Shown in pieces: positions 35,797 through 64,000 of a stretch of DNA of 64,000 bases. The stretch is taken from positions 1,267,330 through 1,331,329 of the forward strand of contig VXAZ01007874.1 in assembly GCA_013399875.1 (NCBI GenBank). Reading direction: 5' to 3'. The position numbers and the translations under genes were made by a program. This stretch comes from Gymnorhina tibicen. Taxonomy: Eukaryota > Chordata > Aves > Passeriformes > Artamidae. Position 1 is the first letter of the stretch; each line of letters starts with the position of its first letter. Under the pieces are notes generated by a model, which saw only the letters and a program-made list of their open reading frames with translations, had not been told where the DNA came from and did no database searches.

Positions 35797-36300
35797 AGAG
35801 AGTCTGGAAATCATTTGGTTTAATCTTCTGTTGCAAATAGGGCTTTAGGTTATGTTATCCAGGACTCTGTACAGATAGGTCTTAAATATTTCCTGTGAGA
35901 GACACTCCACCACTTCTCTGGGTAACCTATTCCAGTGTCTAATTGCTCTCATGAAGAAGAGTGACAAAAGAACCTCCATCTTATCTATAAATACCCTCCA
36001 GTATGGCAACACTGTAATAAGATTCCCTCCCCTGAGCACCCTTTCCTCTAGGTTCAACAAACCAATTTCCTTCAATTTTTCTTCATTTTTCAAGTCCTAG
36101 AACCCTCTAATCATGCTGGTAATCCCCTGCTGGATCGTTTCCAGCTTTATAATGTCTCTTGAAATGGGGATACCAAAACCGGACAGTGTTCCATGTGTGG
36201 CCTAACAAGTGGTTGAGTAGAGCATAATAATCACATCCGTTAAATACCTTGGTTACACTTCTGCTGACACAGCCCAGGCCATGGACGTGTGGATGTGTAC
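35797..36300 (-). mobile_element. CR1 LINE fragment, antisense, ORF2 end plus 3' UTR
   Basis: On the minus strand a frame at 36093-35845 carries the CR1 ORF2 C-terminal signature RAIRHWNRLPREVVE (residues about 49-63 of that frame), followed by the usual LxxF.xxLD-like tail. Upstream sequence (36093-36300) matches the CR1 block with 'ccagctttataatgtctc' and 'ggccta', but is frame-broken. The copy is 5'-truncated and moderately diverged, older than the two near 59 kb. It is not a host gene. Confidence 0.9.
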
Positions 36301-58588: not shown

Positions 58589-58730
58589 ACAGGTAATATA
58601 TAATTTCCATAATATTATAGATATTATAATATATATTATAATACATACTATAATATATATTATATGTACCGTAATATAATATAAAGTATACATATATATC
58701 TCTATATACACACACTATATCCAGTAAAAA
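58589..58730. repeat. AT-rich low-complexity tract
   Basis: Irregular repeats of 'ataatat', 'tattata' and 'catatata' over about 140 bases, ending in a short 'tacacacac'. It abuts the 5' truncation point of the CR1 copy. Confidence 0.9.
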
Positions 58731-58939
58731 CTACATCAATTACTCTTCTGTTCCCAAAAGTGTCGTAACTATCAGCTGTTTGAAGAATTGTTACAAGTAT
58801 TTAACAGAGAGGGTAAATAAACGCATTTTTGCAGGCTGGAGGGAGTGCAACAGTTCCCCCTAGCGACCGCAGCACATAGCAGAAACCCTGCTGGTGAAGG
58901 TTTTCAGGACTGTTCAGCCTTTAAAAAGCACGTAATAAA

Positions 58940-59165
58940 ACACGGTTAATCTCAAGCGCGTTCCGAGCGAACGGAGGAACGGCGAGGGCAGAGGCCGGAG
59001 CGGGGTGCGGCAGAGCCCCTTGGCTTCCCGGGAAGAGCTGAGGCCGCGCCGTTGCCATGGCGACCGCCCGCTGAGGGGCTGCGCGCGGGGCCCGCACCCC
59101 CGGGATCCCGCGTGTTTCCCCCGGGAATGGTGGCTGTGTGCGCCCGTCACTGAACCACGGCATCC
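58940..59165. promoter_or_regulatory. CpG-rich promoter-like island
   Basis: This is the only dense CpG cluster of the window outside a recognisable transposon. It holds many CG dinucleotides, GC boxes such as 'ggagcggggtgcgg', the palindrome cttcccgggaag (59024-59035) and an X-box. It is about 0.9 kb upstream of the ZSWIM2 RING exon on the same side as that gene's 5' end, so it is most simply the ZSWIM2 promoter. Transcription could start on either strand. On the minus strand an ATG in the X-box opens a 45-codon frame (59057-58921), probably incidental. Retained CpGs argue that the island stayed unmethylated in the germ line until recently. Confidence 0.65.
59051..59064. promoter_or_regulatory. 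RFX X-box
   Basis: gttgcc-at-ggcgac matches the X-box consensus (GYTNCC, 1-3 bases, RGNAAC-like) as an almost perfect palindrome. RFX factors use such sites 5' of ciliary and testis genes. The location in a CpG island upstream of a spermatogenic gene supports function, at least ancestrally. Confidence 0.7.
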
Positions 59166-59168
59166 ACT

Positions 59169-59546
59169 GGGCTGCAAAACACCTCCGAGGTCATCGGGCC
59201 CAACCCGTGACCCAACACTAGCGCCCCAACACTTGTGGCACGTCCTGTCTTTCTTTAAACGCCCCCGGGGCCGTGACGCCGCCACCTCCCTGGGCAGCCC
59301 GTTCCAATGTCTAATCACCCTTTCTGTGAAGAAATCCATCCTAATGTCCAACCTAAACCTCCCCTGGCACAGCTGAAGACTGTGTCCTCTCGTCCTGTCA
59401 GTTGTTAGCTGGGAGAAGACGTCCCGTCGGGGAGTTGTAAACAGCAATAAAGTCTCTGGATGAACAACCCCAACGCCCTCAGCTGCTCCTCGTCACCCTT
59501 GTGCTCCAGCCCCTGCACCAGCCTTGTGGCCCTTCTCTGGACTCGA
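59169..59546 (-). mobile_element. CR1 LINE, antisense, ORF2 end plus 3' UTR
   Basis: 'ctccgaggtcatcgggccca' followed by 'gtgacccaacac' is a reversed CR1 tail. On the minus strand the frame 59447-58914 begins inside the element and encodes the ORF2 end ([16 protein letters not shown], residues about 40-55) before running into the CpG island by chance. It is 5'-truncated at about 59546. This copy separates the CpG island from the ZSWIM2-related exons, so it inserted in a promoter-proximal position. Confidence 0.92.
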
Positions 59547-59547
59547 G

Positions 59548-59593
59548 ATGTTTATAGATCAGATATGTAAATGTTTATAGATCAGATATATAA
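59548..59593. repeat. 23-base tandem duplication
   Basis: 'atgtttatagatcagatat' occurs twice head to tail (units at 59548-59570 and 59571-59593, one mismatch). It begins exactly where the CR1 copy stops. Confidence 0.9.
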
Positions 59594-60094: not shown

Positions 60095-60790
60095 TTTAAG
60101 ACTCTTACAATGAAGAGAATGACAGATGCATTGATCAGGGAGAAACTGATGAAGAGGATGTTTGTCCCCTATGTCAGGAGGCGTTGTTAAGGAAAATGTT
60201 TCTGTTCCCTTAGTGCAGGTTAGGCATAAAATTTGTTCTCTGCCTTGTTATACTTCTAATGATAGAATAAATGCTACAAGATCTCCTAACACAGCTACCT
60301 CCAATACACAAGAAGAATACCTGACAGTTGTTACAGCCCTTTTGCAATCTGGGAAATGTGGCAATCAGAGGAGTTAAAATGTGGAGAGGAAGGAGGAAAG
60401 GAAAAGGAAAGACTACTTAGTATTGCTGTGTGATTTTTCTTATTTGCTTCTGAAGAGATAACAGAAATTGGAATTTATTTTCTGTAGATACATCTGTGGT
60501 AATGTTCACATTAAATACATAAAACTGCGGGCAGACCACCAAGATGAACTGGAGAATGGCTCTGCAGTGAAGTGTCCACTTTACAGAGAAAAACACGCAC
60601 CTCTTACTCTAACAGAATTTAGAAACTGAACAACTTGTGAAAACAACAAAACAAGACTGAACAGGCACCTTGGAAACACTTGTAATAACTGCAGAGCATT
60701 TCCAGCATAGGAAAGTGCTACAATAAATATTTTTAAACCAGTATTTTGACAGTCTTTGAGTGTATCTTATAGCTTGTCACTTATCTCTCT
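60095..60790 (+). pseudogene. ZSWIM2: ZSWIM2 pseudogene: RING finger 1 and start of ZZ finger
   Basis: Intact ZSWIM2 (MEX) is a testis-rich E3 ubiquitin ligase with SWIM, RING, ZZ and second RING domains. Here exon A (about 60095-60218) reads NEENDRCIDQGETDEEDVC then PLCQEALLRK. Its donor is cag|gttagg, the intron is 60219-60487 (269 bases), and the acceptor is ttttctgtag. Exon B (60488 on) continues CRYICGNVHIKYIKLRADH, then KCPLYREKHAPLTLTEFRN, then RLNRHLGNTCNNCRAFP. This matches the family's CPIC..., CRFGCGN.HIKCMK, KCPLCR.EFAPL and CNNCK.FP.EGKCY in order and spacing. Lesions: TAG at 60211-60213 two codons before the splice site, TGA at 60627-60629, and one base lost near 60705-60706, with the frame resuming as IGKCY at 60707. 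RING ligands Cys became Tyr at 60516 and 60582. From 60750 only traces of the ZZ finger remain. The retained intron rules out a processed copy. Confidence 0.85.
60219..60487 (+). other. Intron of the ZSWIM2 pseudogene
   Basis: gt at 60219-60220 and ag at 60486-60487 split an Arg codon (ag|a) between the RING cysteine and the CGN motif. The intron itself is partly open in one frame by chance (60162-60377). Both splice sites still fit the consensus despite the broken reading frame. Confidence 0.8.
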
Positions 60791-61086: not shown

Positions 61087-61914
61087 AATGTCTTTGGTTC
61101 ACTATAGAGGCAAGACTAAGTAGGATTCCAGGAAGGTTAGCTTGCTGTTCTAAAATCTACGAGAAGGGGTAGGAAAAGCACTTGAGTTATTTAAGGAGCT
61201 ATATAACTATATAATAGTAGTCTACAGAGCTACAAATATATGAAAAATGTATAAAAAGCAAAAATCTTTTTGGCATCAACTTCACCTAGAGAGTAGACAA
61301 CATATGCTTTGTACACAAACATCCACGGCAAACAAAGCAAATGGTTTTAAACTTGCTTTTGGTGCAGTACGTCTCCAAATGATTCTGTAGTGTGCATTTG
61401 GATTGACCTTCTCCAAATAAATAATTTAGCTACTACTTTATCATAAAGGGTTAAAAGCTTATTAACTTAGCTCCTTATTCTGTTGATGTCCTTTTGGTTT
61501 TTTTCTGAGGTGTACCAAATATGCTGAATATCACCTATGGCATGAGTCTTTCACTGGCTTTTGCCATTCTCCACAGTTTTTATTTTTAGACAGGTATCAG
61601 ACATTTTCCTTTTTGTATCCTACTCTGAACTATTTAATAATTTTAATTCCAGTTTTACAAATCACACTAGATTTGATTTATTCAGCTAAAAGCTAAGTAC
61701 TTACAGAAAGATACTAAGAAAAGCAAAAACAGCACTATAAAAGAAAGGTTCATCATCCTTTGCCTCTATACATTGCACCACAGCACCCTTACAGGGACAG
61801 CAGATGCAAATATATCCTACCTTACCCTACCTTTCCCATATCTTTATGTAGATAAGCCCTTGCAGCTGACAATGTGGTCCAAAATAAAGGGCCATAGGAA
61901 CCAATATGAACTGA
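61087..61914. other. Intron-like or intergenic DNA
   Basis: AT-rich sequence with no open frame of note. I searched for the second RING (CxxC...CxHxxHxxC...CxxC) and did not find it. Confidence 0.5.
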
Positions 61915-62163
61915 GAAGATTATGGACGTTCTTTGGACTCTGCTTGTAAAGGGCATAAACCATCAGTTCCAGCATCTTCCCCAATTAAACCGGACTGGAC
62001 CTTACTAACTTCTCACTGTTATTATCCAGGGTACCAGTCACCTTCTGTACGAGGTGTACCTGGGACTATTACAGCCTGGGGAATTCTGTCAGCACAGAAC
62101 AAATTCACTGAGAGTCCAGGCCTTGAACTAGAGCATAGCAACTGCAAAATTAAGGAGTTGTGA
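61915..62163 (+). pseudogene. Coding-like open segment, possible ZSWIM2 C-terminal exon part
   Basis: Open from after a TGA at 61912-61914 to a TGA at 62161-62163. The translation contains HKPSVPASSPIKPDWTLLTS, then YYPGYQSPSVRGVPGTITAW, and ends HSNCKIKEL. Pro/Ser-rich, disordered, plausible for the poorly conserved C-terminal half of ZSWIM2. No catalytic or structural motif, no start, and no clear splice acceptor. Could be a degraded last exon that continues with frame loss into 62241-62432. Confidence 0.3.
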
Positions 62164-62240
62164 AAATGAGTATGTGCGGTGCTACAGATAGCTGGTTCTT
62201 TCATACCATCAGTGAGTTTAGATTACTGTAACAATCACAA

Positions 62241-62432
62241 ATGCATCTACTTGTCTTGGAAGTTAATTTTGCTGCCATGTTGTCTCTAGATTTCCAGAAA
62301 AAGCAGCATTTCAAATCTGAGAGTTGTCTCACAAACAAGGAGATTGTCTCCAAGGTCCACCTGAAGACTACAAGAAGCTTTTCTTCACAAGAAACAACAG
62401 ACAATGTGACCATATCAGAATTGGCAACCTGA
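62241..62432 (+). pseudogene. Coding-like open segment 3' of the ZSWIM2 remnant
   Basis: A 63-codon plus-strand frame whose second half (FQKKQHFKSESCLTNKEIV, then SKVHLKTTRSFSSQETTDN) is hydrophilic and protein-like. With the preceding segment it may be one decayed terminal exon interrupted by a frameshift. There is no family match, so chance is quite possible. Confidence 0.22.
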
Positions 62433-64000
62433 AGGAGGATAACATTCTTTTGTCATGGGAATTATGGTGATGACAGAAATACATTTAATGATATTTAGAA
62501 AAAAAGTGTTGTGAGATGTCCCTAAACAATATATGGCTTCAAAGAAACTCAAAAGTTCAGGCATCAATAACTTTTTCAAATTTTTATTATATTGCATAAG
62601 CTGTAACATTTTACAAATCTTAGTTACATTTTCAGCAACAGATACACTGATACTGTAGTAAATACAGAGATGAAAAGACACCTCTGACAAAATATAAAAA
62701 GGTAGAAATACTTCAAACCAGAATGCCGAATATCAAGAATGTTTTACATAAACGATATCCATACTAGAGAGTTTTTGAAAATGATTGCCAAGGTCATGAA
62801 GCGTTTGTTGAATATAAGGCTCCATAATTCAAGGTGGTGAGCACAGTCAGTGCCATGAATTCACCTGCCTTGATCCAGAGCCAAGGCTTTGTATTAATAA
62901 CATGCTCTAATGAGCACTAAAAACTGCCTTTCTACACAATGACATGTAAAAATACTACTGTTCTAACATGGACTGAAGTGCAACAAGTGCTTCAAAGGAA
63001 CTAAATCAATTACCTGGGGAATAAAGTACCAGGATGTTTTGGGGAGGGGGAATATAGGAATGTTCAGTAAATCCTAAAACTGACTGAAAAAATTTCATTT
63101 GGTAAAACAGTTTTCAGGCTGAGTGCTAGAACAAAAAGCAATGACAGTTTTGCCCTGCCAGTCTTGAAAAAACCTGAAGCTTTTTTTTTTTCAGAACACA
63201 ATGAATACTGCTTTTAAAAAGAAAATGAAGCTCAGATTCAAGTCATTTAAACCACCTTTCATATAAATTCTTTAACGCAAATGTAGCTGCCTACTGTTAG
63301 AAATGTGGCACAAATTTGTACAAACTACTATAAAAGAATGCTCGTTTTTAACTCCGTAGGCATAGTAATATGTTTTCATTATATCACTGAATTTAAAAAA
63401 AAATTAAAAATAATTTAAAAAACAATGCAGGTTAAGCTCCAAATTGAGATAAAAATTGGTTCTAGAAAATAAGAATTACGTACCCATCTCCATACACTTT
63501 CTGCTGCTACTGGCAAACAAAGTTAGCAGCTGAAAAAAGGAGTTTTATCATTATAATAGTGTTTATATATCAACATATATTAATTTCATTTTTGAAGTTA
63601 ATATCCCAGTCAGTTTCATATCTGTAAGTCCAGTGACTTCAAGATGCTTGCACTTGACGTATGAAGCTGAATCAGATCCCGTATGTGCATTTTTAAAAGA
63701 CACTACTGTTCAGATTGCTAAAGATATATATTTTTTATTCCTTTTCAAACATAAAATACAAAAACCAGGGTTTACAACAATTACCATCATCATCAACATG
63801 CAGGAGTCAGTATTCCAACATAAAGAACACTAGATCTGCCTTTTAAAAGATTATAAAAGCTACATAATTGTATGAATTCAGGGGTTTTTTGGCTAACAGA
63901 AAAAAACCATAATGTGCTTTTCAGATAGTCAAGTGTCCCACTGATAAAATAAGTCTGATGAAAGAGAAAGGCACTTCAGCAGGCTAATTTATCTCCAGAT
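62433..64000. other. Intergenic DNA, nothing recognised
   Basis: AT-rich sequence with short T- and A-runs (for example 63180-63191). No exon of FAM171B, the expected next gene in amniotes, is visible. Confidence 0.5.

Follow-up and report, generated by a model that had tools for sequence, protein, structure and literature searches.

The 64,000-base stretch of Gymnorhina tibicen DNA analyzed here (the window) holds, on its + strand, the broken remains of an intron-bearing ZSWIM2 gene. The protein encoded by ZSWIM2 is an E3 ubiquitin-protein ligase with SWIM, RING, ZZ, and RING-H2 domains and is testis-specific in mouse and human. Three exons lie in the expected order, their splice phases agree, and their introns are homologous to those of other birds; with at least five frame breaks and five lost cysteines, the locus does nothing as a protein. 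We put at about 0.87 the probability that this is the bird's own ZSWIM2, dead and decaying without constraint. Such a unitary pseudogene would occupy the ancestral position, and the genome would have no intact copy elsewhere. Its loss could have spread if the ligase was dispensable for male fertility, and the likely history would be the drift of a dispensable gene.

Seven ZSWIM2 proteins (pigeon, duck, emu, ostrich, alligator, crocodile, and turtle) were used as tblastn queries against the 64-kb window and find the same three blocks, in order on the + strand, at about 60109 to 60219, 60447/60480 to 60704, and 61508 to 61585. With the pigeon protein, the E values are 1e-10 (60109 to 60219), 7e-23 (60447 to 60704), and 6e-7 (61508 to 61585). 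An earlier note on this DNA recognized two ZSWIM2 exons and proposed aligning the region to ZSWIM2 of other species, emu and crocodile among them; both exons are recovered by tblastn and by profile, and the third block adds a ZZ finger remnant (61510 to 61593). A profile of 19 sauropsid proteins, run with hmmsearch on a six-frame translation of the window that ignored stops, matches exons A, B, and C at E values of 2e-11, 5e-29, and 5e-5, against 0.9 for the next-best place in the 64 kb. By these values, the RING and ZZ segments are closest to ZSWIM2. Pfam searches of the three exon pieces give no family above the cut-off and one chance match (E = 0.08); only direct comparison with ZSWIM2, and not Pfam alone, identifies the pieces. 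The structural features are as follows.

60098 to 60218, + strand: exon A remnant (start of the RING finger), readable from about 60109
60219 to 60487, + strand: intron between exons A and B, GT...AG kept, first ~70 bases homologous to a pigeon-like intron
60488 to 60723, + strand: exon B remnant (rest of the RING finger and start of the ZZ finger)
61510 to 61593, + strand: exon C remnant (ZZ finger), with both its acceptor AG and its donor GT preserved
61594 to 61645, + strand: first part of the intron that follows exon C, homologous to an ibis read-through (P0146)

The locus resembles ZSWIM2 in exon order, splice phase, and RING and ZZ sequence, with 98 of 142 residues identical to pigeon. 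It differs in having at least five breaks in its frame, in the loss of five cysteines that likely bind zinc, and in that the first and last exons are not found in the window. Neither the SWIM domain (exon 1) nor the C-terminal RING-H2 was found there by profile or alignment; the C-terminal part, with the last exons, may lie past base 64000. The profile search finds no exons after C in 61590 to 64000. In that interval, the pigeon protein's following 150 residues reach a score of 37, versus 30 to 33 in just four shuffles, and we make no claim for this candidate. Exon A is itself incomplete: in a whole-exon alignment its first ~35 codons are mostly unrecognizable, with a weak extension back to 60041 (6/22 residues identical), and its 5' half alone scores 23 against a shuffled mean of 23.9 and a maximum of 33 (30 shuffles). 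CALCRL, the only neighbor gene sought (with a human query), has no tblastn match in the window better than E = 0.46, and no neighbor gene was found within the window.

The lesions come from aligning the locus, with frameshifts permitted, to exon sequence that was typed out from bird proteins of the intact and vulture types.

60211 to 60213, + strand: exon A, nonsense codon TAG in place of Tyr
60501, + strand: exon B, lost Asn codon
60516 and 60582, + strand: exon B, Cys to Tyr at each
60603, + strand: exon B, 6-base loss (two codons)
60627, + strand: exon B, 2-base loss that makes TGA
60640, + strand: exon B, lost Thr codon
About 60646 and about 60705, + strand: exon B, 1-base losses
61520, 61538, and 61547, + strand: exon C, Cys to Tyr, Cys to Trp, and Cys to Ser, respectively
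61574, + strand: exon C, 1-base loss

In total, the exons carry a single nonsense codon and four supported frameshifts, plus a fifth that is weak; there are also in-frame codon losses and five lost cysteines, which are likely zinc binding by the RING and ZZ consensus. The weak frameshift is a 2-base insertion at about 60107 in exon A, where the alignment scores 136 with it and 135 without. Four of the lesions reported in the earlier note are present as described, namely, the nonsense codon at 60211, the one-base deletion at about 60705, and the Cys-to-Tyr changes at 60516 and 60582, which it assigned to RING ligands. The TGA that it gave as a second nonsense codon, at 60627, is also there but is better read as a 2-base loss. 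Allowing frameshifts raises the exon B score from 210 to 250, and in the shifted frame EQLV is read, in agreement with the QLV of intact proteins; thus, this TGA is more likely the product of a deletion than of a point nonsense change. Exon C likewise scores 121 with frameshifts and 104 without. The expected donor of exon B, whose position at 60724 we deduce from the phase of exon C, reads TA at 60724 to 60725, neither GT nor GC. An intact reading frame and the zinc ligands are absent at the locus, and with the frame broken and the ligands lost, it is a pseudogene and not a gene.

For amino-acid replacement, invariance was taken from 133 full-length vertebrate ZSWIM2 rows, two LOW QUALITY ones being kept in, and differences were counted against pigeon in 43 columns at ≥97% identity (invariant) and 99 variable ones. 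The window is changed at 12/43 invariant and 32/99 variable residues, whereas the corresponding counts are 0/43 and 16/99 for duck, 0/43 and 22/99 for emu, and 1/43 and 14/99 for sandgrouse. These three birds are among the 133 rows, which slightly favors their low counts, although one row in 133 cannot fix a 97% column. Change from pigeon thus amounts to 31% and falls on invariant and variable sites alike; because it ignores invariance, it has the pattern of a dead gene. Overall, the locus is a disabled coding sequence without constraint.

A CpG island lies upstream of the exons and contains a candidate regulatory motif.

58800 to 59160, strand not assigned: CpG island (by CpG observed/expected), probable ZSWIM2 promoter and exon 1 area
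59051 to 59064, + strand: GTTGCCATGGCGAC, RFX-like X-box, one mismatch from the X-box palindrome

CpG observed/expected is 0.84 to 1.08 in three 200-base steps (starts 58800, 58900, and 59000), compared with 0.15 for the window. Matches with up to three mismatches are ordinary in number (four in the window, 2.5 expected); GTTGCCATGGCGAC alone has a single mismatch, and a match as good occurred in 1 of 3,000 shuffles of 58801 to 59165. Hypomethylation of the island may persist in the germ line, and the island is possibly a still-living promoter, to judge from its base composition. A rival explanation holds that the remnant has been reused as a noncoding RNA transcribed from this retained promoter. 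The CpG ratio across 58800 to 59199 and the RFX-like X-box within it are in its favor; however, no Rfam family reaches its gathering score in the window and the island could serve another gene, and we consider such reuse unlikely. Exon 1 was also sought in the island. With the ostrich N-terminus, the observed score was reached by 3/400 and 0/100 shuffles, but with pigeon, duck, emu, and flamingo, 10 to 46% of shuffles reach the score, and a signal that exceeds shuffles with ostrich only is not claimed. Other features were noted nearby. CR1-like repeat remnants, whose family and extent are judged by eye, are found just downstream of the island (about 59161 to 59551) and at 35848 to 36096; their minus-strand readings hold RHWNRLPREV and another 10-residue stretch. 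An AT-rich inverted repeat at 58596 to 58693 has two 48-base arms that are 75% complementary.

Among the matches listed, ZSWIM2 models are unflagged in Columba, Pterocles (partial), Anas, Dromaius, Struthio, Eudromia, Nothoprocta, and Tinamus (shorter), with further unflagged short or partial models from pigeons, geese, ducks, and tinamous. The same matches include models marked LOW QUALITY from Sarcoramphus, Phoenicopterus, Theristicus, Chlamydotis, and Morus and partial ones from Ciconia and Ciccaba; the models of these seven birds each cover 22 to 43 of the invariant sites and are changed at 3 to 9 of those covered. Among the named rows of the matches listed, ZSWIM2 of songbirds, parrots, falcons, and landfowl does not appear. 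These are the best 120 of 272 and 120 of 323 proteins, with clusters at 90% identity showing one name, and do not represent copy counts. For ibis, bustard, and sandgrouse, the order was looked up in the taxonomy, and the placement of the other birds is general knowledge. None of 227 ZSWIM2 proteins contains X, which was presumably stripped from LOW QUALITY models, and stops or frameshifts in those models appear only as missing residues.

The earlier note's statement that ZSWIM2 has been lost in this bird therefore needs to be widened. The locus is unable to code for the protein, but since five other Neoaves have LOW QUALITY models, the loss is seemingly not particular to this bird, and ZSWIM2 looks broken in several other modern birds also, making this one case of a wider gene loss. 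The same observation bears on a second rival, in which the locus is a duplicated, intron-bearing pseudogene and an intact ZSWIM2 lies elsewhere in the genome. LOW QUALITY models in five other Neoaves among the matches listed are what is expected if the gene itself decays in the group, and although this is indirect evidence, we regard a duplicate as improbable.

In a tree of 18 rows, from which stork P0196 is excluded, the window groups with Neoaves at a modest bootstrap support of 77, and its branch, at 0.39, is the longest in the tree, ahead of one of 0.15. Pigeon and duck differ at 16 sites; there, the window agrees with pigeon at nine, with duck at five, and with neither at two. At the protein level, the missing residues of the LOW QUALITY models do not coincide with the window lesions, which hints at separate losses in different bird lineages. 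P0124, P0146, and P0152, and also P0145 and P0150, are LOW QUALITY models; those from king vulture, ibis, and gannet are without a residue at the same ZZ-exon proline, perhaps reflecting a frameshift shared among them. Their gap is one codon from the exon C lesion of the window, and a shared ancestral frameshift was set aside as unproven. A more elaborate proposal is that ZSWIM2, otherwise retained from sharks through to ducks and pigeons, has undergone several independent deaths among the Neoaves, each lineage carrying lesions of its own, and that its CpG-island, RFX-type promoter stays unmethylated in the germ line of this bird at least and still transcribes. We offer this as speculation that is, taken whole, rather doubtful.

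The splice junctions and their flanks separate the decayed gene from a retrotransposed copy. Exon A ends TGC AG|GTTAGG, keeping its donor, and exon B begins A TAC after TTTCTGTAG; thus, the intron interrupts an Arg codon in a phase that agrees between the two exons. Exon C starts G TGT after TTTTTTTCTGAG and ends AGA CAG|GTATCAG. The intron start after exon A scores 73 against P0188, a 24-residue pigeon-like read-through (maximum of 28 in 30 mononucleotide shuffles), and the end of exon C with the following intron scores 84 against the ibis read-through P0146 (maximum of 35 in 30 such shuffles). Because the sequence past exons A and C is homologous to intron read-through of other birds, the copy kept its introns. 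A processed copy, which the earlier note had also argued against, is ruled out by two such introns, the one between A and B bounded by GT/AG and the one following C opening with GT. A working gene marred by sequencing or assembly errors is likewise very unlikely, as that note held, for although a single assembly is the source, four supported frameshifts and a stop fall within ~430 coding bases and the 31% change from pigeon spans invariant and variable sites.

Read as the bird's own decayed gene, the locus joins bird unitary pseudogenes that are already known. STK33 is one of these, being broken in all 28 neognaths of one study (PMC4509753). Like ZSWIM2, it is a proposed spermatogenesis gene that is kept in palaeognaths and has decayed with indels and stops in other birds, but ZSWIM2 is unflagged in ducks, pigeons, and sandgrouse, which suggests that its loss was later and patchier. 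WDR93 and CFAP46 are similar in that the same gene was lost in distant bird lineages; they differ in being ciliary genes, lost in landfowl, geese, and others (PMC10445033). No report of ZSWIM2 loss in birds was found by title among papers naming ZSWIM2 or in general bird gene-loss searches, which covered main texts.

The earlier note suggested that the loss could bear on sperm biology, and the mouse offers little encouragement for this. In a knockout study, mouse Zswim2 is testis-specific, and Zswim2 knockout and Rnf148/Rnf151/Zswim2 triple-knockout males are fertile, with litter sizes like those of controls (PMC9277888); a strong effect of the loss on sperm is thus not expected. The fertility of these males leads one to predict little effect, in keeping with a dispensable gene drifting away. 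A testis ubiquitin ligase thereby joins the list of genes shed by birds. The most useful feature is the patchy pattern: models are unflagged for pigeon, sandgrouse, duck, ratites, and tinamous, and the LOW QUALITY label falls on those of vulture, flamingo, ibis, bustard, and gannet; this distribution is usable as a natural test of the importance of ZSWIM2 for sperm.
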